Positions 1 through 22,592 of a stretch of DNA of 33,878 bases are shown here, piece by piece. Origin of the DNA: Clostridia bacterium. Its GTDB lineage: Bacteria > Bacillota > Clostridia > Oscillospirales > Acutalibacteraceae. The first letter of the stretch is position 1. Each line of letters opens with the position of its first letter. The stretch covers positions 1 through 33,878 of the forward strand of contig JAGBAK010000100.1 in the NCBI GenBank assembly GCA_017938985.1. Direction: 5' to 3'. Position numbers and translations under genes: made by a program. The notes under the pieces are model-generated. The model had not been told where the DNA came from and ran no database searches. It was given only the letters and a program-made list of their open reading frames with translations.

Positions 1-964
1 GAACAATTGATGAAAGGTCATATTTGCTGACGTCATTCTGAAGCATAAGGCGGTACATTGTTGGCGGTACGCAGAAGGTGGTAACTTTGTATTTTTCAAG
101 CTTTGAAAGAATATCAGCGCCGTCAAACTTATCAAAGTCATAAACCATAATAACGCTTTCGCCCATCCACTGACCGTAGTATTTACCCCAAAGGGATTTT
201 ACCCAGCCTGTGTCTGAAACGGTGAAATGAACTCCGCCGTCAACAACGTGGTGCCAGAAAACGCCCGTCATAATGTGACCGAGAGGATATTTAAAATCGT
301 GAGCGATGATTTTGGGATAACCTGTTGTGCCTGATGAGAAGTTGATAATCATCGTATCTTTAACGGTTGTTGCTGCATCGCCCGTGGGTCTTGTCCAGCT
401 TTCGTCGGCTTTCTCAAAGCCTTCTTCAAAATCAATCCAGCCGTCAATGGGTTTGTGCTTTGTGACAAACTTTTTGAGGATGGTTTCGTACTGACCTTCG
501 CCGCCGTCAAAATATTCCGTGCATTCATCGTCGCCTGTAATAAGGGCATATTTGATTTCAGCCTTGTTGCAGCGATAAACGTAGTCCTTTGCTTTGAGCA
601 TATTTGAAGCGGGAACCATAATTGCGCCGATTTTGTTCAGCGCAAGGGTAACAATCCAGAAAAGGTAGCTTCTTTTGAGAACAAGAAGAACGGGATCGCC
701 CTTCCTGACGCCCTGCGAAACAAAGTAGTTAGCCGCCTTGTCGGAAAGTCTTTTCATATCGCCAAAGGTGAAACGCTTTTCCTCGCCTTTGTTGGATATA
801 TAAAGGAGAGCTTCTTTGTCGGGCTTTTCCGTACCGAGAACGTCGATAACGTCATAGGCGTAGTTAAAGCTGTCGTCGCAGGTGATTTTGAAGTTCTCCT
901 GGCAGTCCTGAAGAGAAACAAAAGAATCTCTTGTTCTGCCTATAAATTTTTCGTAAATCGCCAT
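1..964 (-). CDS. AMP-forming acyl-CoA synthetase, MACS-type (3' end cut by window)
   Basis: Adenylate-forming ligase that activates a carboxylic acid with ATP and CoA. The first 321 residues are visible; the AMP-binding P-loop SSGTTGYPK and the downstream DTGW and PPTMYR motifs are in place, a pattern typical of the medium-chain acyl-CoA synthetase group. The start ATG at 962-964 follows GGAGAAAG at good spacing. It is the last visible gene of the ten-gene operon, 19 bases after the XRE-cupin regulator. With a branched-chain 2-oxoacid oxidoreductase and aminotransferase in the same operon, isobutyrate, 2-methylbutyrate or isovalerate are plausible substrates; this is inferred from context. 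The C-terminal swivel domain lies outside the window. The family call is firm, the substrate is not. Confidence 0.9.
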   Translation of the reverse strand, partial: MAIYEKFIGRTRDSFVSLQDCQENFKITCDDSFNYAYDVIDVLGTEKPDKEALLYISNKGEEKRFTFGDMKRLSDKAANYFVSQGVRKGDPVLLVLKRSYLFWIVTLALNKIGAIMVPASNMLKAKDYVYRCNKAEIKYALITGDDECTEYFDGGEGQYETILKKFVTKHKPIDGWIDFEEGFEKADESWTRPTGDAATTVKDTMIINFSSGTTGYPKIIAHDFKYPLGHIMTGVFWHHVVDGGVHFTVSDTGWVKSLWGKYYGQWMGESVIMVYDFDKFDGADILSKLEKYKVTTFCVPPTMYRLMLQNDVSKYDLSSIV

Positions 965-983: not shown

Positions 984-1532
984 TTATTTCAGAACAAGAG
1001 CAATAAACTGTGCGGGGCTCTCGTCGATAACTTTGTGCGCATGGGGGATAGTTGAATCAAAATATGCGCTGTCGCCTTCGTTAAGCTCATAGCAGATGTC
1101 GCCGATGTAGAGCATCAGATGACCCGAAAGCACATAGTCAAATTCCTGACCCTCATGTTCATCCATAACGGGAGGGTTGCCGTTGGGTTCGATAGTTACA
1201 AGGAAGGGCTCTGCCTTCTTATCCTTAAAGGTATATGCAAGATGAGAAAATTCGTAGCCGGGGTTGCGGTTGACAACAAAGCCCTTGCCTTTTTTAACAA
1301 CCGTGCAGGTTGAAAGACGGGGTGATTCTCCGCTGATGATGTCAAGAATATCAACGCCGAGAATAAGAGCAATGTTGTTGAGCGTGCTGATTGCAAAGTC
1401 ATACTCGCCGTGTTCAAAGGAAATGTAATCGTCCTCTGAAATTTCAAGCTTTTCAGCCATTTCGGTGGCGGTAATTTCGCACATTTCACGCAGGGAAGCA
1501 ACTCGCAGACCGATTTCTTTTAATTCAAGCAT
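984..1532 (-). CDS. XRE-family regulator with C-terminal cupin sensor domain
   Basis: Probable transcription factor of 182 residues. Residues about 8-65 form a Cro/C1-type helix-turn-helix (MAEKLEISEDDYISFEHG is the HTH core). Residues about 105-180 form a small cupin barrel, with EHEGQEFDYVLSG and the later HAHKV segment supplying the usual metal or ligand residues. This XRE-cupin architecture is known from regulators of amino-acid, polyamine and acyl-CoA metabolism. The start follows AAGGAGAACTCAG. It lies between the oxidoreductase gamma subunit and an acyl-CoA synthetase, so it most likely controls this operon in response to a small acid, amino acid or CoA ester; this is inference. No operator is identified with confidence. 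Confidence 0.88.
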   Translation of the reverse strand: MLELKEIGLRVASLREMCEITATEMAEKLEISEDDYISFEHGEYDFAISTLNNIALILGVDILDIISGESPRLSTCTVVKKGKGFVVNRNPGYEFSHLAYTFKDKKAEPFLVTIEPNGNPPVMDEHEGQEFDYVLSGHLMLYIGDICYELNEGDSAYFDSTIPHAHKVIDESPAQFIALVLK

Positions 1533-1550: not shown

Positions 1551-2084
1551 TTAATCAAAGTTATAACCAAGCTCAACAGCTTTGATATTGAGGGCAAGCT
1601 TGTCCTGCTTCTTTGCGGGAACAACCTTTGCCATAACCTTTTCTACGTTTTCGTAAGGCATAACGCCTGCTTTTTTGATCATATAACCGATCATAATCAT
1701 ATTTGCAAGACCGCTTAAACCTTCGTCGGAAGCCATCTTTGTTGCAGGAATGTAATAAGCTTCAACGTCTTCTCTGTTAACCTTGCGGTCAATGAGTGAG
1801 CTGTCAACAAAAATCTTTGCGCCGGGAACAGCTTCGTTTTCAAACTTGTCAAGTGAGGGCAGGTTCATTGCAATAAGAATGTCGGGGTTAGAAACGATGG
1901 GGGAGCCGATCTGAGTATCGCTGAGGATAACGGAGCAGTTGCAAGTGCCGCCTCTCATTTCGGGGCCGTATGAAGGAAGCCAGCTTACCTGACGGTCTTC
2001 AATAAGTCCGTCATAAGCAAGAAACTTGCCTGAAAAGAGGATACCCTGACCGCCGAAACCTGCAAGAAGAATCTGATGTGTCAT
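1551..2084 (-). CDS. 2-oxoacid:ferredoxin oxidoreductase, gamma subunit
   Basis: Gamma subunit (177 residues) of a CoA-dependent 2-oxoacid:ferredoxin oxidoreductase. The N-terminal LLAGFGGQGILFSGKFLA is the family signature, and SYGPEMRGGTCNCSV is the conserved second block. In the complex it packs against alpha and beta and contributes to CoA binding. Its ribosome site AAAGGAGGAT lies inside the last codons of the beta gene, two bases separate the genes, and translational coupling is likely. Complete and of normal length. Paralogues for pyruvate, 2-oxoglutarate or indolepyruvate share this fold; the branched-chain assignment rests on the alpha subunit and the aminotransferase neighbour. Confidence 0.93.
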   Translation of the reverse strand: MTHQILLAGFGGQGILFSGKFLAYDGLIEDRQVSWLPSYGPEMRGGTCNCSVILSDTQIGSPIVSNPDILIAMNLPSLDKFENEAVPGAKIFVDSSLIDRKVNREDVEAYYIPATKMASDEGLSGLANMIMIGYMIKKAGVMPYENVEKVMAKVVPAKKQDKLALNIKAVELGYNFD

Positions 2085-2086
2085 AA

Positions 2087-2842
2087 TTATTTATCCTCCT
2101 TTTCTGCAAACTTATCCTTATAAACACCGAGAGGATAATAGGGAAGCATATTATCCTCAAGCCACTCAAGAGCTTTTTCGGGTGTAAGACCCCAGTTTGT
2201 GGGGCAGGTTGAAACAACTTCGATAAGGGAGAAGCCTTTACCGTCAAGCTGATTCTGGAAAGCTTTTTTGATAGCCTTTTTAGCGTTTTTAACGTTCTTT
2301 ACGTTATTTACTGCGACTCTTTCAAGATATGTTGCGCCGTCAACGTTTGAGAGCATTTCGCAAACCTTAACGGGGAAACCAACCTTGCTTGTGTCTCTGC
2401 CGTAGGGTGAGGTCTGAGTAACCTGACCGGGAAGAGTTGTGGGGGCCATCTGACCGCCAGTCATGCCGTAGATAGCGTTGTTAACAAAAATAACCGTGAT
2501 GTTTTCGCCTCTTGCTGCAGCGTGAACTGTTTCCGCAGTACCGATAGCTGCAAGGTCGCCGTCACCCTGATATGTAAAAACAACGTTATTTTCGGGATCT
2601 GAACGCTTAACGCCTGTTGCAACGGCGGGAGCTCTGCCGTGAGCAGCCTCAATCATATCGCAGTTAAAATAGTTATAAGCAAAAACGGAGCATCCTACGG
2701 GTGCTATGCCGATTGTTCTGCCTTCAATGCCGAGTTCATCAATAACTTCGGCAACAAGGCGGTGGATAATGCCGTGTGTGCAGCCCGGACAATAATGGAG
2801 CGGAACGTCTGCAAGGGCCTTGGGTTTTTCAAAAACAACCAT
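2087..2842 (-). CDS. 2-oxoacid:ferredoxin oxidoreductase, beta (TPP-binding) subunit
   Basis: Catalytic thiamine-diphosphate subunit, 251 residues. YCPGCTHG near residue 17 and GCSVFAYNYF near residue 50 are conserved blocks of the family and carry cysteines. The TPP/Mg motif runs from GDGDLAAIG through VIFVNNAIYGMTGGQ. It decarboxylates the 2-oxoacid (or carboxylates acyl-CoA in reverse) and passes electrons to ferredoxin. The start ATG overlaps the alpha-subunit stop by one base, so translation is coupled. No pyruvate-type long fused polypeptide is present; this is the four-subunit architecture typical of VOR, KOR and IOR-like enzymes. Confidence 0.94.
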   Translation of the reverse strand: MVVFEKPKALADVPLHYCPGCTHGIIHRLVAEVIDELGIEGRTIGIAPVGCSVFAYNYFNCDMIEAAHGRAPAVATGVKRSDPENNVVFTYQGDGDLAAIGTAETVHAAARGENITVIFVNNAIYGMTGGQMAPTTLPGQVTQTSPYGRDTSKVGFPVKVCEMLSNVDGATYLERVAVNNVKNVKNAKKAIKKAFQNQLDGKGFSLIEVVSTCPTNWGLTPEKALEWLEDNMLPYYPLGVYKDKFAEKEDK

Positions 2843-3912
2843 TATTTGTCACCTCCGATTTTATTTGCTTCCTCAATCTTGGAAAGCACGTCGCCTGTTG
2901 TGGGAATCATACCGCCTGTTCTGTTGCAAAGAAGAACGGGCTTCTTGCAGCGGATAGCGAGTTCAATATCTTCAATCATCTGACCCATTGAAAGTTCAAC
3001 GCTTACGAATGCCTTAACCTTGTCAGCTGCAGCGTTAAGTACAGCCTTGGGGAAGGGCCAGAGAGTGATGGGTCTGATCATACCGACCTTGATGCCGTTT
3101 TCTCTTGCCTTGTCGATAGCGTTCTGCGAAACTCTTGCAGCTACGCCGTAAGCAACGATGCAGATTTCAGCATCTTCCATACGGTATTCGTCATACATAA
3201 CTTCGTTTGCTTCAATCTGAGCATAACGTTCAAAACGCTCAAAGTTATATTTTTCAAGCTCGTCGGGCTGAATGAAAAGGGAGTTAACAACGTTGTGCTC
3301 TCTTTCGCATTTTGTGCCGCAAGCTGCCCATGATGACTTGTCATATTCCTTAACTTCACCCATATCAAGTGAAACGGGTTCCATCATCTGACCCATTGTG
3401 CCGTCTGAAAGAAGCATTGTGGGCATTCTGTATTTATCGGCAAGATCGAAGCCTTTGAACGTAAGGTCAACCATTTCCTGGACGGAAGCGGGAGCAAGAA
3501 CGATGAGGTGGAAATCGCCGTGACCTGCACTCTTTGTTGCCTGGAAGTAGTCGGACTGTGAGGGCTGGATGCCGCCGAGACCGGGGCCGCCTCTCTGTAC
3601 GTTGATGATAAGAGCCGGGAGGTCGGAACCTGCAAGATAGGAAATACCTTCGCTCTTGAGTGCAATTCCGGGGCTTGAGCTTGATGTCATTGCTCTTTTG
3701 CCTGCTGCGGCAGCGCCGTATACCATGTTGATAGCAGCGATTTCGCTTTCAGCCTGAAGGAATGTGCCGCCGATGAGGGGCATTCTTTTTGCCATATAAG
3801 CGGCAATTTCAGTCTGAGGTGTAATGGGGTAGCCGAAGTAATGGCGGCAGCCGGCCATAATGGCGGCTTCTGCAAGAGCTTCGTTACCTTTCATCAAAAC
3901 TTTATCAGCCAT
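2842..3912 (-). CDS. vorB: 2-oxoacid:ferredoxin oxidoreductase, alpha subunit (VorB type)
   Basis: Alpha subunit, 356 residues from the ATG at 3910-3912, which sits behind AAGGAGGAGAAGAAA. A TTG 24 bases upstream is also open but overlaps the ferredoxin stop and lacks a ribosome site, so it was not used. The N-terminal KGNEALAEAAIMAGC and FGYPITPQTEI segments and the QRGGPGLGG and QPSQSDYFQATK blocks match proteins annotated as 3-methyl-2-oxobutanoate dehydrogenase VorB in clostridia. This subunit binds TPP together with beta and holds the substrate-side residues. Association with a branched-chain aminotransferase supports a branched 2-oxoacid substrate; 2-oxoglutarate or aromatic oxoacids are alternatives. 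Confidence 0.92.
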   Translation of the reverse strand: MADKVLMKGNEALAEAAIMAGCRHYFGYPITPQTEIAAYMAKRMPLIGGTFLQAESEIAAINMVYGAAAAGKRAMTSSSSPGIALKSEGISYLAGSDLPALIINVQRGGPGLGGIQPSQSDYFQATKSAGHGDFHLIVLAPASVQEMVDLTFKGFDLADKYRMPTMLLSDGTMGQMMEPVSLDMGEVKEYDKSSWAACGTKCEREHNVVNSLFIQPDELEKYNFERFERYAQIEANEVMYDEYRMEDAEICIVAYGVAARVSQNAIDKARENGIKVGMIRPITLWPFPKAVLNAAADKVKAFVSVELSMGQMIEDIELAIRCKKPVLLCNRTGGMIPTTGDVLSKIEEANKIGGDK

Positions 3913-3925
3913 TTTCTTCTCCTCC

Positions 3926-4132
3926 TTACTTCTCAACGGTGATTACGCAGTCGGGGCACATTGTTGCGCAGAAAGCGCAGCCGATGCAAGCTGACTGGTC
4001 GGTGATGCCTGCGGGATGATAGCCCTTGGCGTTGATTTCGTCTTTAAGGAGAGCCACAATCTTTTTGGGGCAAGCTCCTACGCAGAGTCCGCAGCCTTTG
4101 CAGCGGTCTGTGTTAAATGTTACTTTTGCCAT
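3926..4132 (-). CDS. 2[4Fe-4S] ferredoxin-type delta subunit of the oxidoreductase
   Basis: Electron-transfer subunit of 68 residues with two CxxCxxCxxxCP clusters: CKGCGLCVGACPKK and CIGCAFCATMCPD. It carries electrons between the TPP site and external ferredoxin. The ATG at 4130-4132 follows AGGAGGAAAACTT; an upstream in-frame ATG eight codons earlier has a weaker context. The gene overlaps the end of the P-loop ATPase gene by 13 bases and lies 13 bases before the alpha gene, so coupled expression of the complex is expected. Confidence 0.93.
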   Translation of the reverse strand: MAKVTFNTDRCKGCGLCVGACPKKIVALLKDEINAKGYHPAGITDQSACIGCAFCATMCPDCVITVEK

Positions 4133-4815
4133 AAGTTTTCCTCCTGTTTTGCCCACGATTGCCTTACATAAAGCTTAATCGGGAAGCAATCTGAAACTTT
4201 ATCTTTCACTGATTCATATAAATCTTCTTTTACCGTGGTCATTTTAATCGGCAATCCGCTTGCTTTCGCTATTTCTTCGGCATATACAAGCGAACCGAGA
4301 ATGTCTTCGGCGGTTGTTTCCTCGCCGAGATTTGAATTGTTGATGATGCCCGTGAATTTCATTCCTGCTGCCGTTTCAATCTCACGCATAACGCCGATTG
4401 TTGAAGCGCAGTCAGGGGTGAGGGGACGGAATTTGTTGATGACAAGCAGCATTTCGTAGTCATTCTGTTTGAGAATGGCAGGCGCATATCTGCCGAGCGC
4501 AAGAGCGCCTCTGTCGTCACCGCCGACGTCAATAACTGCCTGAACGGATTCATCGTCAATAATTGCATAAGCTTCTGCAGGCAGAGCGGGTACGTCAACG
4601 TTTGAGTTCGCGTATTCCGAGGATATCAGATGAATACCCCTGCTCTCAAGGAAAGCTTCGCTGTCCTTTGTGCGGAAATACGGGTTAACAATATCAAGGT
4701 CGGCGATATCCACTCTGTCAAAATGCTCTCTCAGATGGAGCGCATAGTTAACGGCAATGTTTGTTTTGCCGCTGCCGTAATGACCTGCAAAAAGAGTTAT
4801 TCTTTTATAATCCAT
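4120..4815 (-). CDS. ParA/MinD-like P-loop ATPase linked to the oxidoreductase
   Basis: Protein of 231 residues of unknown role. Residues 11-18 are a Walker A loop, GHYGSGKT, followed by DLDIVNPYFRT and a Walker B-like VIDVGGDD. The order matches the SIMIBI class that includes ParA/MinD and cofactor-insertion ATPases. It lacks the deviant KGG-x-GK loop of MinD. It lies between the aminotransferase (two-base gap) and the ferredoxin subunit (13-base overlap). Related ATPases are, to my recollection, often encoded next to this class of oxidoreductase in clostridia, which suggests a maturation or allosteric role for the complex; that is inference. Confidence 0.82.
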   Translation of the reverse strand: MDYKRITLFAGHYGSGKTNIAVNYALHLREHFDRVDIADLDIVNPYFRTKDSEAFLESRGIHLISSEYANSNVDVPALPAEAYAIIDDESVQAVIDVGGDDRGALALGRYAPAILKQNDYEMLLVINKFRPLTPDCASTIGVMREIETAAGMKFTGIINNSNLGEETTAEDILGSLVYAEEIAKASGLPIKMTTVKEDLYESVKDKVSDCFPIKLYVRQSWAKQEENLWQK

Positions 4816-4817
4816 AA

Positions 4818-5882
4818 TTAAAGAACTGTTACCCAGCCGAACTTATCTTCAACCGTGCCGCCCTGAATGCCTGTAACGGTGTCATAAAGCTTCTGGCTGA
4901 TTTCGCCGATTTCGCCGCCATTGATTGTCATAACGTCGTCCTTATAGCGGAGTTTGCCGACAGGTGAAATAACAGCAGCTGTGCCTGTGCCGAAGCATTC
5001 TTCGAGAGTACCGTTGTTCTGAGCTTCAAGAAGTTCTTCAACAGAAATCTTTCTTTCTTCAACAGGCAGACCCCAGCTCTTGCAAAGCTCAATTACGGAG
5101 TTTCTTGTGATACCGGGAAGAATGCTGCCGTTGAGCATGGGCGTAACAATTGTGCCGTTAATCTTGAAGAAGATGTTCATTGCGCCAACTTCTTCGATAT
5201 ATTTTCTCTCAACGCCGTCAAGCCAGAGAACCTGTGAATAGCCGTCGTCGTGAGCCTTAACCTGAGCTGCAAGGCTGGCAGCGTAGTTACCGCCGGTTTT
5301 TGCAAAGCCCATACCGCCTCTTACTGCTCTGACGTAGTCATCTTCAATCCATATGCCGACGGGAGCAAGACCGCTTGAATAGTAAGCGCCTGAGGGGGAG
5401 AGGATAACGATGAAGAGATATGTCTTTGAGGGAGCAACGCCGAGGAAGTCATCAGTTGCGATGATGAAGGGGCGGATGTAAAGCGATGTGCCGGGAGCCG
5501 AGGGAATCCAATCCTTGTCAACTCTTACAACTTCGCTTACAGCCTGAACAAAATCCTCAACAGGAAGCTCGGGGATGCAAAGACGCTTGTTTGTGTCATT
5601 TGTTCTCTTGGCGTTCATTTCGGGTCTGAAAAGGCGAACTTCGCCGTCAGCGCCCTTATAAGCCTTAAGACCTTCGAACATTTCCTGGCCATAGTGGAAA
5701 ACCATGCAAGCGGGAGAAAGGGAAAGGTTGCCGTAAGGAACTATTCTTGCGTCGTGCCAACCCTGACCCTCGGTATAGTTCATAACAAACATGTGGTCAG
5801 TAAAGATTTTGCCGAAGCCGAGATTGTTTTCATCGGGCTTCTGTTTGGGAGATGTTGTTTTCTCAATTTTAATGTTTAACAT
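4818..5882 (-). CDS. ilvE: branched-chain amino acid aminotransferase
   Basis: PLP-dependent fold-type IV transaminase, 354 residues, of the longer BCAT subgroup. Lys195 in FAKTGGNY is the expected Schiff-base lysine, followed by the conserved ERKYIEEVGAMNIFF stretch and FGTGTAAVISPVG near residue 300. It interconverts leucine, isoleucine and valine with their 2-oxoacids using glutamate/2-oxoglutarate. The start follows AAAGGGTGTAAAAT. It is the metabolic partner of the adjacent VOR complex: together they link free branched amino acids with branched acyl-CoA. Confidence 0.96.
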   Translation of the reverse strand: MLNIKIEKTTSPKQKPDENNLGFGKIFTDHMFVMNYTEGQGWHDARIVPYGNLSLSPACMVFHYGQEMFEGLKAYKGADGEVRLFRPEMNAKRTNDTNKRLCIPELPVEDFVQAVSEVVRVDKDWIPSAPGTSLYIRPFIIATDDFLGVAPSKTYLFIVILSPSGAYYSSGLAPVGIWIEDDYVRAVRGGMGFAKTGGNYAASLAAQVKAHDDGYSQVLWLDGVERKYIEEVGAMNIFFKINGTIVTPMLNGSILPGITRNSVIELCKSWGLPVEERKISVEELLEAQNNGTLEECFGTGTAAVISPVGKLRYKDDVMTINGGEIGEISQKLYDTVTGIQGGTVEDKFGWVTVL

Positions 5883-5915: not shown

Positions 5916-8423
5916 TTATTTGTTCAGACCGAGCTTTTCGGCGGCAGCTTCTCTCATTTTATATTTGAGGATTTTGCCTGCTGCGTTCTTCGGGAAATCA
6001 TCAACAAATTGAATATAGCGCGGAACTTTGTGTCTTGCCATATGGGATTTGATGTAATCCTTCATTTCCTCTTCGGTCATTGATTTGCCTTCTTTAAGAA
6101 CAACGCTTGCCCAGATTTCTTCGCCGTAACGCTTATCGGGCACGCCGATAACCTGAACGTCCTGAACAAACTCGTGGGTAAGAATAAATTCTTCAATCTC
6201 ACGGGGATAAATGTTTTCACCGCCGCGGATAATCATATCCTTGAGTCTGCCTGTGATGAGGTAATAGCCGTCCGGACGTCTGCAGGCAATATCGCCGCTG
6301 TGAAGCCAACCGTCTTTATCAATAGCCAGTTCGGTTGCCTTGGGCATTTTATAATAGCCTTTCATAACGTTAGAGCCTCTGGCAACAAATTCGCCGTTCT
6401 GACCGTCAGGCAAATCTTCGCCTGTTTCGGGGTCGATGATTTTGCACTCAACGTTCGGGAAAGATTTGCCGACGGTTTCGGTTCTGTCAGCAAGTGTTTC
6501 GCTGACCTCGCCCATTGTGCAGCCGGGTGAAGCTTCTGTCTGACCGTAAACGCTGAGAATCTCTGTCATATTCATCTCTGCCGCCGCACGTTTCATAAGG
6601 TCGGGCGGACAGTTGGCGCCTGCCATAATACCTGTTCTCATATATGAGAAATCGGTTTTTGCCATATCCTCGTGTTGGAACATTGCAATGAACATTGTGG
6701 GCACGCCGTTGAAGCAAGTGATATGTTCCTGATTGATGCAGGCAAGCGATGACTTTGCCGAGAAATAGGGCAAAGGCGAAAGTGTGCCGCCGTGAGTCAT
6801 CATAGATGTCATTGAAAGAACCATGCCGAAGCAGTGGAACATCGGAACCTGAATCATCATTCTGTCGGCGGTGGACATATCCATTCTGTCGCCGATGCAC
6901 TTGCCGTTGTTGACGATGTTATAGTGCGTGAGCATAACACCCTTGGGGAAGCCTGTTGTGCCTGAAGTGTACTGCATATTGGCAACGTCGTGGCAGTTGA
7001 CAGCGGCTGCTCTGCGGTAAACTTCTTCAATGGGAACTCTTACGGACATATCCATTGCTTCTTCCCAGGTAAGGCAGCCTTTCTGACGGTAGCCTACTGT
7101 GATGATGTTGCGCAGGAAGGGGAGCTTGCGGCAGTGGAGAGGCTTGCCGGGAACGGCAACCTCAAGCTCGGGGCAAAGCTCTGCGATGGATTCGGCATAA
7201 TTTGAATCAAGGCATGATTCGATGGTAATAAGAGTGTGAGTATCGGACTGGCGAAGAAGATACTCGATTTCGTGGATTTTGTAAGCGGTGTTGACGGTAA
7301 CAAGAACTGCGCCGATTTTTGTTGTTGCCCAGAAAGCGATGAACCACTGCGGCAGGTTGGTGAGCCATACCGCAACCTTGTCGCCGGGTTTTACGCCGAG
7401 AGCGATGAGTGAACGCGCAAAGGTATCAACGTCATCTCTGAACTGCGAATATGTTCTTGTGTAGTCAAGCGTTGTGTATTTGTAAGCAATCTGATCGGGG
7501 AATTTTTCGCACATTGTGTCAAGCACTTCGGAAAAGGTCTTGTTGATGAGCGAATATTTTTCCCAAACGAATTTGCCTGTGCCTGCTCTGTTTGAATAGA
7601 GAAGCTCTTCGGACTTTTTCTTATTGTCATAAACGCTTATGGCGTTGATGAAATGGGGGAAAGTGATTTCCGCAATGCCGAAATCTTCCATTGTTTCGGG
7701 CTGACACTCATATGAGAGGAATCCGTCGTAGTTTACGGAATCAAGCGCTCTGAGCATTGTGCCGATAGGAAGAGTGCCTTCGCCGATAAGGCGGTATTTG
7801 ACTTCGCCGTCCTCAACAACCGAATCCTTGACGTGGACGTGCTTTATATAAGCACCGAGGTTTGTGATTGTTGTGTCGGGATCTTCTTCAAAGAATCTGT
7901 AGGGATGGTTGATATCCCAAAGGGCCGCCAGATTGTCGCAGGCGAAAATGTTGAGAAGGTCGCGCAGTCTTTTTGTGTCTGCATAAATACCAACCGTTTC
8001 AACAAGCAACGCAACGTTATCCTGTTCTGCTTTGCTTATGAGTCTGCCGATGAGCGACGTAACGTGCGAATCTTCTGCCTGTTTGTCCTCTCCGATGGTA
8101 TAGGCGTGAATTCTGACGTAAGGGCATCTTACTCTTGCTGCGATTTCGATTGCGGTTGCAATTTCTTCGTAGTTTTCATCTGCGCTTTTGCCGTCGGCAA
8201 TGTTGCAGAAAGTGTCGATGCAGGGGATAGTGAGCGAATTTTCAAGCAGCTTGTGAAGCGTTGCTGCTGAATTTGATTTATTGAACGGAGCGTCGGAACC
8301 CGTGAATCTGTTATCCGTTATGTTGTGAATCTCAATGCCGTTGAAGCCGAGTTCATTTGCGGTGTTTACAAAGTCAGACCAAGAAAGCTCCTGCCATCCG
8401 TTGGTTGAAAATGACAGTTTCAT
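5916..8423 (-). CDS. fusion of sugar-phosphate isomerase-like TIM barrel and acyl-CoA synthetase
   Basis: Single 835-residue open frame with two enzyme domains. Residues 1-265 resemble the xylose-isomerase-like TIM barrel (AP-endonuclease 2 family), and the usual metal-ligand positions appear filled: Glu142 (LLVETVG), Asp170 (LWDINHP), His197 (HVHVKD) and Glu239 (LSYECQPE). Residues about 290-835 are a complete AMP-forming acyl-CoA synthetase with the P-loop YTSGTTGFPK at 485-494, YGQTE, RGGENIYP and the C-terminal catalytic-lysine segment NAAGKILKY. The gene overlaps the upstream LeuA-like gene by four bases (ATGA), so translation is coupled. No frameshift was needed to read it through. The pairing of an epimerase barrel with a ligase is unusual, and the substrate of the barrel is unknown. 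Confidence 0.9.
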   Translation of the reverse strand: MKLSFSTNGWQELSWSDFVNTANELGFNGIEIHNITDNRFTGSDAPFNKSNSAATLHKLLENSLTIPCIDTFCNIADGKSADENYEEIATAIEIAARVRCPYVRIHAYTIGEDKQAEDSHVTSLIGRLISKAEQDNVALLVETVGIYADTKRLRDLLNIFACDNLAALWDINHPYRFFEEDPDTTITNLGAYIKHVHVKDSVVEDGEVKYRLIGEGTLPIGTMLRALDSVNYDGFLSYECQPETMEDFGIAEITFPHFINAISVYDNKKKSEELLYSNRAGTGKFVWEKYSLINKTFSEVLDTMCEKFPDQIAYKYTTLDYTRTYSQFRDDVDTFARSLIALGVKPGDKVAVWLTNLPQWFIAFWATTKIGAVLVTVNTAYKIHEIEYLLRQSDTHTLITIESCLDSNYAESIAELCPELEVAVPGKPLHCRKLPFLRNIITVGYRQKGCLTWEEAMDMSVRVPIEEVYRRAAAVNCHDVANMQYTSGTTGFPKGVMLTHYNIVNNGKCIGDRMDMSTADRMMIQVPMFHCFGMVLSMTSMMTHGGTLSPLPYFSAKSSLACINQEHITCFNGVPTMFIAMFQHEDMAKTDFSYMRTGIMAGANCPPDLMKRAAAEMNMTEILSVYGQTEASPGCTMGEVSETLADRTETVGKSFPNVECKIIDPETGEDLPDGQNGEFVARGSNVMKGYYKMPKATELAIDKDGWLHSGDIACRRPDGYYLITGRLKDMIIRGGENIYPREIEEFILTHEFVQDVQVIGVPDKRYGEEIWASVVLKEGKSMTEEEMKDYIKSHMARHKVPRYIQFVDDFPKNAAGKILKYKMREAAAEKLGLNK

Positions 8424-9835
8424 ATTTCTTTCTCCTCATAAACGATTTTGTTGAGTGCGTTGATATAGGCGGTGATGCTTGAACCGATGATGTCTGTTCC
8501 GATACCCTTGCCCGAATAGAGCTTACCGTTTGAACGGAGCTTGACAACGGCTTCGCCCATAGCTTCTCGGCCTTCGGTAACGGACTGAATCTGGAAATCG
8601 TCGAGTTCATAGTGGTGACCTATAATCTGTTCGATTGTGAGGAAAGCGGCGTCAATGGGACCGTCACCCATACATACTGCTTTGAGCGTTCTGTTACCTT
8701 TTTCAAGAACGATGTTTGCGGTTGAGGGAATAACGTTACCGCTGTTGATAACGTAGCTCTGAAGTCTGTACGTGGGGGGAACCTGATTTGCAACGCTTGC
8801 GATGATTGCGTCAAGCTCTTTTGCGCCGACCTGTTTTTTGCCTGCGATGTTTTTGAAAGCTTCAAAAACCTTTGCCGTGTCGTCTTCTGTCAGTTCATAA
8901 CCGAGAGAAACGATTGCGTTGCTGACCTTTGCAATATCAGCCGTGTCGTCAAGCAGAACGTTGCTTGCGCTTGTTGTAACGCCGTAGTCAAATTTATCTG
9001 AATCTGCATGCTTGGAATTTACAAGGCGCAGAATCTGATTTGCGGAGTGGTTAATTGCCATTGAATTAACATCGTAGCCTGTGCCGAGAGTGTGACCCTT
9101 GACCTGAAGTGCTTTCATAACCTTTTCAAGCTCGGGCAAAGCTTCGCAGCCGATAGCAGTTTTAATCTCAAGAGCACCTTCTGCAATGCAGCTGAAAATG
9201 CAGGCGTTTGCCATATCAAGTTCATTGCTGCATTCAACGCCGAGGGTTATGTTTGCGATTTCGGGAACAGCGGCATAGAGTTCTTTGATAAGCTGGGCAA
9301 ATTCCGTGGGAAGAAGAGCACCTGCTGTGTCGCAGAGCGTTACGTTTTTTGCGCCGTTTTCAATTGCAACCTTTACTGCTTCAAAAAGATATTCCTTTTC
9401 TGCTCTTGTTGCATCAACTGCGGCAAACTCAACGTCGGTGCAAATTGAAGAGCAATGAGCAGTTAAGGTTTTAATAAGCTCAATCATCTGAGCTGGTTTT
9501 TTATGGCAAATGTATTCCATCTGAACGGCTGAAACAGGGAGCGAAACAAGAAGTCTGGGTTTCTTTGTTGCTGCAATTGAGCGCATAGCTCTGTCAGCTT
9601 CTTCAACGGAAAAACCTACGGGGCAGGATAGAATGCTGTTCTTTAGGAGAGGGCTGATTGTGCGCAAAACAAGAGTGTCAATCTTTTCGTCTGCCACGGG
9701 AGCAGCTTCAATAACGTTGACCTGAAGCTTGTCAAGGAGCTTTGCAATTTCAAGCTTCTCTTTAAAGCTGAGCGCAAGGTCGCCTCTGTGTGCAAACGCT
9801 CTGAGTGTTGCGTCTGCAATGATGATTTTTTTCAT
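8420..9835 (-). CDS. 2-isopropylmalate-synthase-like protein with degenerate active site
   Basis: 471-residue protein aligning by eye with LeuA: DRE-TIM barrel (1-270) and C-terminal LeuA allosteric domain (about 355-465, with GDGPIDAAF and TDIIGSSITAY). The barrel has lost most catalytic residues. The usual LRDGEQ is LRAFAH, so the metal-binding Asp is Ala13. The usual VEFSxE Glu is Val140. The HxHND metal histidines are Glu201 and Ser203 in VECSNE. Only Arg12 of the set remains. The regulatory domain looks intact, so a leucine- or acyl-CoA-sensing or scaffold role is possible. The start ATG at 9833-9835 follows AAGGAGAG; the frame stays open 67 codons upstream but crosses the promoter. First gene of the operon. 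Confidence 0.85.
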   Translation of the reverse strand: MKKIIIADATLRAFAHRGDLALSFKEKLEIAKLLDKLQVNVIEAAPVADEKIDTLVLRTISPLLKNSILSCPVGFSVEEADRAMRSIAATKKPRLLVSLPVSAVQMEYICHKKPAQMIELIKTLTAHCSSICTDVEFAAVDATRAEKEYLFEAVKVAIENGAKNVTLCDTAGALLPTEFAQLIKELYAAVPEIANITLGVECSNELDMANACIFSCIAEGALEIKTAIGCEALPELEKVMKALQVKGHTLGTGYDVNSMAINHSANQILRLVNSKHADSDKFDYGVTTSASNVLLDDTADIAKVSNAIVSLGYELTEDDTAKVFEAFKNIAGKKQVGAKELDAIIASVANQVPPTYRLQSYVINSGNVIPSTANIVLEKGNRTLKAVCMGDGPIDAAFLTIEQIIGHHYELDDFQIQSVTEGREAMGEAVVKLRSNGKLYSGKGIGTDIIGSSITAYINALNKIVYEEKEI

Positions 9836-9949
9836 ACGAAATCTCTCCTTTTTGCCGTTTTTTACGGCGATGATTAGAACAGCAAATCCCGGATGAGGGA
9901 TTAAAAACTGCCTGCCCGGCAGAAAAACACTAATGCATTTTAATGTTTT
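9836..9949 (-). promoter_or_regulatory. structured 5' leader of the ten-gene operon
   Basis: About 114 transcribed bases between the predicted start site and the LeuA-like gene. Read on the minus strand it can form three small hairpins: 9908-9922 (CTGCC/GGCAG), 9885-9902 (AATCCC/GGGATT) and 9854-9868 (GCCGT/ACGGC, just before the ribosome site). No T-box, known riboswitch core or poly-U attenuator was recognised. Confidence 0.35.
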
Positions 9950-9955
9950 CATAAT

Positions 9956-9984
9956 ATTATATATAAAAGGGATTGCAAAGTCAA
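9956..9984 (-). promoter_or_regulatory. sigma-A-type promoter of the ten-gene operon
   Basis: On the minus strand, TTGACT (9979-9984) and a perfect TATAAT (9956-9961) are separated by exactly 17 bases. Predicted start of transcription is near 9949. It is the only strong promoter seen for the block from 9835 down to the window edge. Confidence 0.85.
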
Positions 9985-14925: not shown

Positions 14926-16410
14926 TTAAGCGAATAATTCGGAGAAAATTCCGAGAATTCCGCCGCTTTTTTCTTCGGCAGGAGTAACGGGAATCAGATT
15001 CCCTTCTTTGTCTGCTGCCATAAACTGCGGATATTCTTCGTATGTATGGACGGTTACTTTGTTTTCCGCAAGGAAATAGGTGTCCAGAAACTTAAGATAA
15101 CCTGCAGGAAAAACGCTGTGGCTCATACCGCTGAAAAACCAGGTGTATTCGGGAAAAGCACAGGTTGAAGCGTCAACCGCCAGATCTGCCGAAACGTGGT
15201 TGTGACCGCAGTCAACAGCCTGAACGTAGTTTTCACCGAGTGTATCGCCAAGCGGAGCGCAGGTTGCGCCGATAGACATATACTTTGTGTCAATCAGAAA
15301 ATCTGAATGAACGGCAGGCGTTAAGCTGACGGGGATTGTAGAAATATTATAGCCTGCACAAATAATGATATCTGTGCCGTCAACCATTGCTTCTTCAAGG
15401 ATTTCGGGCAGCTTTACCTGAACGTTATCATGATAATAGTTGATTTTTTCAAGGACAGGAGCGTTTTCTCTGCCTTCAAACATCGCTTCAACCGCATCGT
15501 CAAAGTATTCGTCGGGAACAAAGCTCCATGTGCCTGCAAGATTTCCGAATGCGGGAGCGAGACACTCTTTATAGATCAAATCAAACTGGCTTGTAAGGTA
15601 TTTCTGAAGGAATCTGAGCAGACCGTCGGTAAAACCTGTAAAATTCAGAGCGCCGAGAAGAAGAGAAACCACGTCGGTGCCTGCGGACTCGCCCATAATC
15701 GATTCAACAAAGAATTTGAGCTGGTCTGCTTTGTCTGAAAGGTCAGCTTCTTTGCGGTAGAGTGAACCTAAAATTGATATGCCCTGAAAAGCAGGGGAAA
15801 GGAAAGCGATTTTTTCAATACCTTTGTTGCCGTAAAGCTCAAGATAGGCTGCAACAACGGTGTTGCCCTGACTGTGGCACATAATTGAAACTGTGTTGTG
15901 ACCTGTAAGCTCTTTGACGTATTCGATAAAATCTTTCAGGTCAGACGCATTGTCAATCGGAGAAAGTCTCCAGTCATATTCAAAGTCAAAGGTTCTGTCG
16001 GTGACGTCATCGGTAATGATTCGGTGATAATCCGTTTAGGAGTATTCAAAAGGTTTAATAGAAGTATCTTTAACAGGTTCGCCGTTTTCATCACAGGCAA
16101 GGTTAGCCAGAAGCTTGTTGGCTGCTCTGACTGCAGCTTTGCCCAAAAGAGATTCGTTGCCCATTGCTATTCCCATAATTGCAACAAAGAAATCGGGAAT
16201 GGCCTTTAAAATATCGGAGACGCTTGGCGGATATACCGCGGTCCGGTCATCACTTTCGGGGTTAAGGTAAATGCCTGCACCGAATCCCGGCACGTAAACA
16301 ATCGGCGTATATTCGCAATCGCCGTTACATTCATCTTGCTCCGCAAAAGCAACGGAGCAAATCGAAAAGACCATTGAAAGAGTAAGGATAAGACTGATTA
16401 ATTTTTTCAT
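14926..16410 (-). pseudogene. secreted LCAT-like alpha/beta-hydrolase interrupted by an in-frame TAA
   Basis: Two open segments, 16036-16410 and 14926-15882, lie in the same frame and are joined by 51 sense codons with no other stop. Codon 125 is TAA (16036-16038). Before it are a signal peptide (residues 1-23) and TPIVYVPGFGAGIYLNP, the oxyanion-side motif of LCAT-type lipases/acyltransferases. After it come DWRLSPIDNASDL and the nucleophile motif IMCHSQGN. The reconstructed protein would be 494 codons, a normal length. As read, only a 124-residue stub with no nucleophile is made from the true start AAGGAG-ATG. This may be a recent nonsense mutation or a sequencing error. It sits 23 bases after the metallophosphoesterase gene. 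Confidence 0.85.
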
Positions 16411-20843: not shown

Positions 20844-22592
20844 TTATTTTACTTTTTCTGAAATTCTGACAAATTCTTCCATGATGGATGAAGCTGCATA
20901 CTTGCCGAGAGAAATCATTTCCTGATAGTGACCGTCGATAAGTGCAAGTGCGTAGTCGTTATCGGGAACAACGTAGCCGATAGCATCGTTTGCAAGACCG
21001 AAGCAGAGTGTGTCTTCGCCAAAGAGTTCGTCAATGCAGGGCTGTTCAAAATCCTTGCCTGAATATGAGCCTTCAGCTGTGAGTGAAGAACCGCCTTCGA
21101 TAAGGTCCTGAACGATTTCGCCGGGCATAAGAACAACCTTAACGTCGCCGATTTCCATATAGCCGACTTCTACGAAGATGTAGTATCTGAGACCTTCCTT
21201 ATAAACGTTGTAGTTAACAAGACCAAGCTTGCCTACAAGCTGAATAAGGGGATTGGTAACTCTTATTTTTGCTTCGGAAATCATAATGTTGAGCATGGGA
21301 TCAAGCTCTTTTTCTGTAGCGGGTTCCCAGTTTTCAAACCAGAGTGTGTAGTGTTCGCCGCCGATTTCCATTTCTTTATTGAGCGTTTTCCAGTCAGCGT
21401 TTGCGCGGATGACATCTTCGGAGTTTGTGAGGTTAAGAGCGATTGTGCCGAGCTCTCTGCCGATTCTTTCGGATTCGTTCCAACGTCTTTCAGTGGGAAC
21501 ACCGTCACTTGCAGGGTGTCTGCCGGCATAAATACCCGCAATAGCACCGTTGAAGAACATAAAGTTTTTGCCGGCTTCTTCAATTACCTTGCCCATATGA
21601 ACAACGTAGTCGCCTGAAAGCTGTCTGCCGTTATCAATTTTATCAACTGCAAGACCTGCGATGTCGGGGTGAGCAGAGTAGTTAACAATAAGAGTTTCTC
21701 TGTGGGCGGTGTCGATTACGTCGGGAGTGAATGTGAATCTTGCCATCTCCTGAATAAGAGAATCTGATGAAGGTCTGTTCTTGTTGTTGAAATATTCCTC
21801 ATCAAGCTCTTTAACGGCATATTTCATTGTGCCGGGAGTCATATTTTCAATAGCTTCCTTCATAGCGCCTGTAGCTTTCTCAGTAAGGAATGCCATATAT
21901 TCGGTGTCAACGCCGGGGGTCATCTGACCGATGCCGATGTAGTTCTTTGCAATGTTGCCAAGGAGCTTGGGCAGAAGGTTTGTCCAGAGACCCTGTGTGT
22001 CAACGCCGCTGTGAACGTGAGTTGCGGTAACGGTGATTGTGCTGAACTTTGTGTTGGGCATAAGTTCAATAAGAGCTTTTCTGATGTTTTTGATGTCATA
22101 GTTTGACATACCGATTGAGTCGATGTTAGCAAAAACAGCAATGCCTCTGCCTGAACCGTCGTCAACTGCGATAACTCTTACCTGCATATCGTCAACAACT
22201 TCTTCAATCTTGTTTGCCATACCGTTCTGGAGTGACATGAAGCCGCCAAGATAATAATCCTTGGTCTGCCAATCTTCGGGAACAACGGATGCTTTGCCGT
22301 AACCGAGCTTCCACTTTGCGTTTTCGGCAGGTTCTTCAAGCCATTTTTCTGTGCCGCGATAAAGCAGTTCGTCAGTGTAATCCTTCATTTTCATGATTTC
22401 GTCGCTGTCGGGTATTATGAGGTTGAGAGCGCCGATAACTGTGGTGAGAATCTTGTCAAGAGCAAAAACGCCGAAGTCGGTAAAGAATTCTGCAGCGGAT
22501 GAAGCTGCTGCTGCGCCTGTTGAAGTGGCGCATGCAAATACCATTGACAGGGCGAGAATGATGCTGACAACTTTTTTGCTGAAGCCGTTCAT
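20844..22592 (-). CDS. exported neutral ceramidase-like hydrolase
   Basis: 582 residues. The N terminus is a signal sequence (about 1-28); VFAC at 18-21 could be a weak lipobox. The core resembles the neutral/alkaline ceramidase N-terminal domain: TATHVHSG (His192, His194) corresponds to the zinc-site THTHSG motif, and YSAHPD, LMPGEIVQDL and GYVVPDNDY match the later blocks that supply Glu and Tyr zinc ligands. It would cleave an amide-linked lipid such as ceramide, though members of this family also hydrolyse other esters or amides. It is shorter than characterised ceramidases and lacks an obvious C-terminal Ig-like domain. Ribosome site AAGGAGAC; single gene. Confidence 0.82.
   Translation of the reverse strand: MNGFSKKVVSIILALSMVFACATSTGAAAASSAAEFFTDFGVFALDKILTTVIGALNLIIPDSDEIMKMKDYTDELLYRGTEKWLEEPAENAKWKLGYGKASVVPEDWQTKDYYLGGFMSLQNGMANKIEEVVDDMQVRVIAVDDGSGRGIAVFANIDSIGMSNYDIKNIRKALIELMPNTKFSTITVTATHVHSGVDTQGLWTNLLPKLLGNIAKNYIGIGQMTPGVDTEYMAFLTEKATGAMKEAIENMTPGTMKYAVKELDEEYFNNKNRPSSDSLIQEMARFTFTPDVIDTAHRETLIVNYSAHPDIAGLAVDKIDNGRQLSGDYVVHMGKVIEEAGKNFMFFNGAIAGIYAGRHPASDGVPTERRWNESERIGRELGTIALNLTNSEDVIRANADWKTLNKEMEIGGEHYTLWFENWEPATEKELDPMLNIMISEAKIRVTNPLIQLVGKLGLVNYNVYKEGLRYYIFVEVGYMEIGDVKVVLMPGEIVQDLIEGGSSLTAEGSYSGKDFEQPCIDELFGEDTLCFGLANDAIGYVVPDNDYALALIDGHYQEMISLGKYAASSIMEEFVRISEKVK

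Follow-up and report, generated by a model that had tools for sequence, protein, structure and literature searches.

Why should a bacterium keep, in good order, a leuA-type gene whose product seems to have lost the residues that made it an enzyme? The question is raised by the minus-strand gene at positions 8420..9835 of contig JAGBAK010000100.1 (assembly GCA_017938985.1) from a Clostridia bacterium of the family Acutalibacteraceae; the whole stretch of DNA analysed, 33,878 nucleotides long, is called the window below. Its product, termed pseudo-LeuA here, is rather probably no enzyme but the leucine-feedback module of an operon that would make leucine from isovalerate. A more specific account, to which we give an even chance, is that a LeuA retired in one clostridial ancestor was rebuilt as the leucine-gated regulatory subunit of an isovaleryl-CoA ligase, within a set of separate, T-box-tagged ligases for leucine, isoleucine and valine, the replacement isovalerate route thereby gaining the feedback control of the lost route. 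Two genes are central:

8420..9835, minus strand: LeuA-derived protein, almost certainly catalytically dead, with a degenerate HMGL-like barrel (about residues 1-235), a shortened linker and a LeuA_dimer allosteric domain (336-464)
5916..8423, minus strand: fusion of a xylose-isomerase-like TIM barrel (AP_endonuc_2, residues 21-242) with an AMP-forming acyl-CoA ligase (303-817), coupled to the pseudo-LeuA gene by ATGA

The pseudo-LeuA frame comprises 471 intact codons. Its ATG at 9835 is preceded by a GGAG box and its TGA stop (8420-8422) overlaps the next ATG (8423), which bears out the earlier note's description of a well-started frame coupled to an acyl-CoA synthetase fusion. Pfam recognises an HMGL-like domain (residues 4-228, 103 bits) and a LeuA_dimer domain (residues 336-464, 101 bits). 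The 17 NCBIfam matches, to 2-isopropylmalate synthases and other HMGL-type enzymes, all lie far below their cut-offs; against TIGR00973 (2-isopropylmalate synthase) the protein scores 254 bits, compared with a cut-off of 598.7. The LeuA_dimer domain alone has no match in the PDB up to an E-value of 0.1.

Relatives were assembled as a set of 104 pseudo-LeuA proteins, comprising the window protein and the distinct open frames of fetched loci scoring above 250 bits against it, with identical frames removed and near-copies left in. The 80 loci counted below are the best 80 of at least 406 relatives found by a scan of genome contigs, the most distant relatives falling outside the counts; a search of 60 genomes, own genome included, gave further relatives beyond those 80. 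The canonical comparison set consists of 24 chosen clostridial LeuA.

Certain LeuA residues and segments serve metal binding and catalysis. Four of these had been read as substituted in the window protein (Ala13 in LRDGEQ, Val140 for the catalytic Glu, Glu201 and Ser203 in HxHND), and all four readings hold in alignments, also against solved LeuA chains. The homologue comparison proposed at the time extends the losses to the family: the LRDGEQ Asp is lost in 104/104 pseudo-LeuA, the first metal His of HxHND in 104/104, the second in 103/104 (it is kept in L095) and the catalytic Glu in 87/104. The same four columns are D, E, H and H in 24/24 canonical LeuA, and the pseudo-LeuA counts agree between both alignments; canonical counts are taken only from the alignment with these 24, since stray frames stood among the reference rows of the other. 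Other metal-type residues in these columns were considered and rejected, position 13 being Glu in 44/104 proteins, position 201 Glu in 31/104 and position 203 Ser in 70/104. Columns 13, 14, 16, 140 and 201 of the former active site are variable. Two further losses had been missed: the NGIGERAGN segment is altered and four residues shorter, and a 28-residue stretch with HESGIHQHG...TYEI is absent, as read against three canonical sequences, with which the family consensuses agree. The statement that only Arg12 remains of the active site was too strong, as Asp8, Thr10, Asp141, Arg144 and Asp169 are kept in 102-104 of the 104 proteins; Arg12 itself is Arg in only 59/104. Judged from these alignments, the loss of LeuA catalysis appears close to certain.

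The gene is nevertheless maintained. On average, pairs of the 104 pseudo-LeuA are 45% identical over the barrel (1-228), 35% over the linker and 69% over LeuA_dimer (351-465), compared with 63%, 62% and 51%, respectively, among the 24 canonical LeuA. LeuA_dimer surpasses the barrel in identity in 5355/5356 pseudo-LeuA pairs vs 9/276 canonical pairs. It is the most conserved part of pseudo-LeuA, and the selection pattern is reversed with respect to canonical LeuA. Among columns near-invariant in canonical LeuA, pseudo-LeuA retains 30/92 in the barrel and 24/29 in LeuA_dimer, whose GDGP motif is kept almost throughout (G 104, D 102, G 104 and P 103 of 104). In the structure of Mycobacterium tuberculosis LeuA, leucine occupies pockets that this domain provides where the two subunits meet, according to the available part of its description (PMC11057210). 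The ratio of nonsynonymous to synonymous substitution rates (dN/dS) in 14 close pairs is 0.04-0.11 for the barrel and 0-0.07 for LeuA_dimer, with one high linker value of 0.34 (L007-L008); many dS values are near 1 and the ratios are rough. In a tree of 35 of the 104 proteins, the 24 canonical LeuA and three citramalate-synthase-like proteins, pseudo-LeuA forms one clade inside clostridial LeuA with 100/100 support, from a bootstrap that had not fully converged. Members of the clade come from gut and rumen Clostridia. Simple decay is ruled out by the long intact frame, the low dN/dS and the conserved clade, as the earlier note had argued from the frame. In sequence terms pseudo-LeuA is a pseudo-enzyme, its catalytic residues gone and its gene under purifying selection in one clade.

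The TIM-barrel/ligase fusion follows directly on the same strand in 79 of the 80 loci, and in the 80th the contig runs out after 213 bases; the association suspected from the window alone is thus general among these loci. In the phylum sample only G112, besides the own genome, carries pseudo-LeuA, again adjoining the fusion. The ligase motif YTSGTTGFPKG is identical in 66/66 aligned fusions. The metal-ligand set of the AP_endonuc_2 domain, which we take to be EDHE by analogy with the superfamily, is whole in 45/66 fusions (window included) and altered in 21/66, and this second TIM barrel therefore seems to be losing its catalytic site in part of the fusion family.

A link to leucine comes from the leaders. 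When its matching tRNA is uncharged, a T-box allows expression of the gene behind it, and such genes are therefore regarded as supply genes. At the Rfam threshold, a T-box lies directly before the pseudo-LeuA gene in 14 of 24 relatives' loci submitted (7/15 and 7/9). By a core pattern slightly wider than that of the first search, 52 of the 80 loci have a core in this place (53 cores). The specifier was taken as the triplet that lies 9 to 7 bases before the stem I GAG, a rule fixed after viewing examples and then scripted. It reads CTC in 39 of the 53 cores and CTG in eight, with six unread; all 47 readable specifiers are leucine codons. Among a further 29 loci from the relatives search, a core is present in five (CTC in four, CTG in one). 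The earlier note had left leucine and acyl-CoA both in play as the sensed signal, and these T-boxes favour leucine. In one relative, Neobittarella massiliensis strain Marseille-P4047 (L045, 7540-7950), tandem antiterminator-type cores (7760 and 7883) share apparently one stem I before the pseudo-LeuA gene, with a CTG specifier read by eye. Another relative has a tetrahydrofolate (THF) riboswitch upstream of its locus (L036, 5597-5697).

T-boxes of other specificity precede the MbcS-like acyl-CoA ligase genes of the same 80 loci. Of their 34 cores, 23 read ATC (isoleucine), four GTA and one GTC (valine) and five are unread; a single CGG reading (L081) is probably a misreading. Because MbcS-like ligases carry isoleucine or valine specifiers, this suggests separate ligases for the isoleucine and valine branches of branched-chain acid carboxylation. 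Examples of such cores lie at L025 12015-12255, L031 5550-5790 and L079 12018-12255, and further ligase genes with isoleucine or valine T-boxes occur in L060, L062, L066, L079 and L075.

The carrier genomes were examined for the classical leucine pathway. Carriers number 36 of the 60 genomes, own genome included, as counted by hand with one fragment (G001) and one split gene (G005) among them. LeuB and IlvC were counted when above their family cut-offs, and LeuC by hand as aconitase-family frames of 415-480 amino acids. LeuB is found in 4/36 carriers vs 14/24 non-carriers (Fisher p 0.0001) and LeuC-sized frames in 4/36 vs 13/24 (p 0.0004), p-values that ignore shared descent and incomplete assemblies; IlvC is found in 6/36 carriers, own genome included. 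Since LeuB and LeuC are so rare among them, the isopropylmalate route seems closed to most carriers. In the own genome, whose assembly is 81% complete, canonical LeuA and LeuB were not found, and the sole frame of the aconitase family, truncated by a contig end, resembles relatives' long aconitases in score. The earlier note had seen in the operon a conversion between branched-chain oxoacids and acyl-CoAs and had left its direction open. Both the T-boxes and the scarcity of leuB and leuC among carriers favour a synthetic direction, starting from branched-chain acids, over breakdown.

The remaining genes of the operon, and the features of its leader, are the following:

9956..9984, minus strand: promoter-like TTGACT (9984-9979) and TATAAT (9961-9956) at a spacing of 17, sigma-70-like, conserved in nine near relatives
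9930..9943, minus strand: short inverted repeat close downstream of the -10 box, shared by the leaders of near relatives (L005-L013), where it is conserved
4818..5882, minus strand: IlvE, type II branched-chain-amino-acid transaminase (TIGR01123, 415 bits, cut-off 250)
4120..4815, minus strand: 231-amino-acid protein with a visible P-loop, GHYGSGKT, and no Pfam or NCBIfam match up to E 0.001
3926..4156, minus strand: ferredoxin-like subunit of a 2-oxoacid oxidoreductase, so assigned because two CxxCxxCxxxC motifs can be seen in the frame
2842..3936, minus strand: VorB, alpha subunit of a 2-oxoisovalerate-type ferredoxin oxidoreductase (VOR; 545 bits, cut-off 399)
2087..2842, minus strand: thiamine-diphosphate beta subunit, Vor/Kor family, below NCBIfam cut-offs
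1551..2084, minus strand: gamma subunit, Vor/Kor family, below NCBIfam cut-offs
984..1532, minus strand: helix-turn-helix (HTH)-cupin protein, a probable regulator
2..964, minus strand: MbcS-like acyl-CoA synthetase, truncated at the window end (150 bits to AcylCoAsynMbcS, its best NCBIfam match, over a 321-amino-acid piece; cut-off 850)

In the 47 loci with at least 6.5 kb downstream, counting either side and either strand, an oxidoreductase (a multi-subunit VOR or a long one-chain protein) is near in 31, an MbcS-like ligase in 29 and IlvE in 13. The 231-amino-acid P-loop protein adjoins the ferredoxin and VorB genes in many relatives. HTH-cupin-like sequence and MbcS-like ligase share one open frame at L028 13054-15117, L056 3-1661 and L050 5724-6881, as if the regulator were fused to the ligase in some lineages and encoded separately in the window. 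The inverted repeat at 9930-9943 stands where other lineages have their T-box and is a possible operator, maybe the site of the HTH-cupin protein; a search of the window for further copies gave one exact copy, and weaker matches were no more than chance. Elsewhere in the window, the minus-strand frames 14926-15882 (318 amino acids) and 20844-22592 (582 amino acids) have no Pfam match up to E 0.001.

Taken with the leucine T-boxes, these genes would form a route to leucine. The fusion ligase encoded next to pseudo-LeuA would convert isovalerate, which is common in the gut and rumen, to isovaleryl-CoA. The 2-oxoacid:ferredoxin oxidoreductase would then carboxylate this reductively to 2-oxoisocaproate with reduced ferredoxin, and transamination would yield leucine. 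When plentiful, leucine would bind the LeuA_dimer domain of pseudo-LeuA, and the degenerate barrel, docked on the ligase (possibly on its TIM-barrel domain), would turn the ligase down. Leucine supply would be sensed twice, at the RNA level by the T-box in many lineages and at the protein level by LeuA_dimer. What we infer is that LeuA_dimer binds leucine, that pseudo-LeuA and the ligase form a complex, that the effect on the ligase is inhibitory and that isovalerate is the substrate, and the main uncertainty is whether LeuA_dimer restrains the ligase through the degenerate barrel. The earlier proposal of a pseudo-enzyme used as a sensor for the fusion has thereby gained a maintained pseudo-enzyme, a fixed pairing and a favoured ligand, its sensing role staying conjectural. 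Rumen bacteria carboxylate isovalerate and then aminate the product to leucine (Allison and others 1962, 1966, as cited in the accessible part of PMC7356843). MbcS of Staphylococcus aureus, in the portion available of its description, activates 2-methylbutyrate and isobutyrate, the acids corresponding to isoleucine and valine, and hardly uses isovalerate (PMC10026030). Isovalerate should therefore have a ligase of its own, for which the fusion ligase is the candidate, in keeping with its leucine T-box.

Several observations weigh against this picture. The catalytic Glu is retained in 17/104 pseudo-LeuA, and the second metal His in one. The allosteric domain, said in the earlier note to be kept, is indeed kept but not unchanged: Gly replaces the canonical Glu (TDIIEAS) at 451 in 99/104 and Glu replaces the canonical Asp at 424 in 97/104, and because these changes are fixed and its own, the ligand of the domain may differ. 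Four carriers (G002, G010, G035 and G036) have both LeuB and LeuC, two others (G047 and G052) have LeuB-family frames below the cut-off, and the own genome keeps ilvC. No T-box was found in the leader of the window, where Rfam gave only weak matches far below threshold and the pattern none; the pattern is likewise absent from the closest relatives (L004-L013), and cores are missing from 28 of the 80 loci and 24 of the 29 further ones, some of whose leaders are short. Nine of the 47 long loci have none of oxidoreductase, MbcS-like ligase or IlvE. Both one-chain oxidoreductases scanned score above cut-off as pyruvate:ferredoxin oxidoreductase, so that a branched-chain use of this type is not established, and the full-length MbcS-like ligases scanned reach about half of the MbcS cut-off, which makes the transfer of MbcS specificity to them tentative. 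Fusion-sized frames are also present in 13 of 299 phylum genomes where a whole-genome search found no pseudo-LeuA; in the ten surroundings fetched, some on contigs that end nearby, the ligase half was confirmed and pseudo-LeuA was not seen. One genome with the fusion and no pseudo-LeuA (G079) has a whole leuABCD set. Given these genomes, the ligase can work without the sensor.

Four other explanations of pseudo-LeuA were considered. The barrel may have acquired a metal-free reaction, or may bind an acyl-CoA or oxoacid intermediate, leucine feedback then acting there and not on the ligase. Its low dN/dS indicates strong purifying selection, Phe24, Pro100, Lys113 and Lys225 are near-invariant in pseudo-LeuA and absent from the 24 canonical LeuA, and the AP_endonuc_2 domain of the fusion lacks an assigned step, which leaves room for a reaction that the pathway drawn above does not include. 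A new site in the same pocket should, however, show invariant polar residues, and the former active-site columns are variable. We regard this explanation as rather unlikely.

Pseudo-LeuA could instead be a scaffold, a dimerising subunit that only holds the ligase (perhaps also the oxidoreductase) together, its allosteric domain being kept for dimerisation and not for leucine. LeuA_dimer is described as an allosteric (dimerisation) domain, the gene pairing with the fusion is fixed, and the altered metal ligands in 21 of the 66 xylose-isomerase-like domains would suit TIM barrels that serve as docking parts. Dimerisation alone does not explain why LeuA_dimer is more conserved here than in canonical LeuA, though, and the leucine T-boxes tie the gene to leucine supply; a pure scaffold is accordingly judged unlikely.

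Breakdown of amino acids through acyl-CoA to acids, with pseudo-LeuA sensing leucine as the substrate, seems very unlikely. VOR is best known from amino acid fermentation, and in principle both VOR and AMP-forming ligases are reversible, but T-boxes for leucine, isoleucine and valine induce genes under shortage of the amino acid, and the scarcity of LeuB, LeuC and IlvC in carriers speaks for synthesis. That pseudo-LeuA forms mixed dimers with a true LeuA and regulates it is barely credible and was rejected: pseudo-LeuA has a dimerising domain and six carriers (G002, G010, G035, G036, G052 and G058) hold other long LeuA-family frames, yet 30 of the 36, own genome included, show only short, weak LeuA-family matches among the matches listed, so that it mostly occurs without another LeuA.

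The leucine-feedback module preferred here can be set beside several known systems. With LeuA (TIGR00973) pseudo-LeuA shares the domain order, a LeuA_dimer domain with GDGP and its nested position among clostridial LeuA; it differs in lacking the metal ligands, the catalytic Glu (in most members) and the NGIGERAGN and HESGIHQHG segments, in its reversed conservation and low profile score, and in the rarity of LeuB and LeuC beside it. The proposed reactions equal those of the rumen isovalerate route, in a similar habitat, as far as the accessible part of PMC7356843 describes it; the difference lies in candidate genes with leucine-specific control. S. aureus MbcS (available portion of PMC10026030) is the best NCBIfam match of the operon's second ligase and of its relatives behind isoleucine T-boxes. 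The ligases here score about half of the MbcS cut-off or less, however, MbcS feeds fatty acid synthesis, and the ligase of the leucine branch, which bears a TIM barrel at its N terminus, is of a different family. In Geobacter and Pelobacter, too, a leuA-type gene, named 2-isopropylmalate synthase, is reported to be preceded by a T-box (PMC2494555), a likeness by gene name.

A parallel in kind is HisZ, a regulatory pseudo-enzyme derived from a tRNA synthetase, which likewise is a dead enzyme copy controlling amino acid synthesis. HisZ serves the classical pathway, whereas the dead enzyme here once catalysed the first step and now apparently works for the pathway that took its place. Regulatory pseudo-enzymes are themselves known; the new element would be one made from the first enzyme of a lost pathway and tied to its replacement. 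A literature search weighted towards open access, with most subscription journals outside its scope, found, among the papers listed, no description of a dead LeuA or of its operon; nor did it find there the genes of the isovalerate route to leucine, or their control by T-boxes, named, which is weak evidence of absence.

The combined evidence suggests that a retired enzyme became a control device. Annotation by similarity may name pseudo-LeuA a 2-isopropylmalate synthase, and would then attribute to the genomes concerned a leucine pathway apparently missing from most of them. The gene pair and the amino-acid-specific T-boxes make the genes and control of the isovalerate route testable in a cultured relative. 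If the reading is true, these gut and rumen Clostridia would offer a clear example of a first enzyme that, though dead, brought the feedback site of its old pathway to the successor of that pathway.

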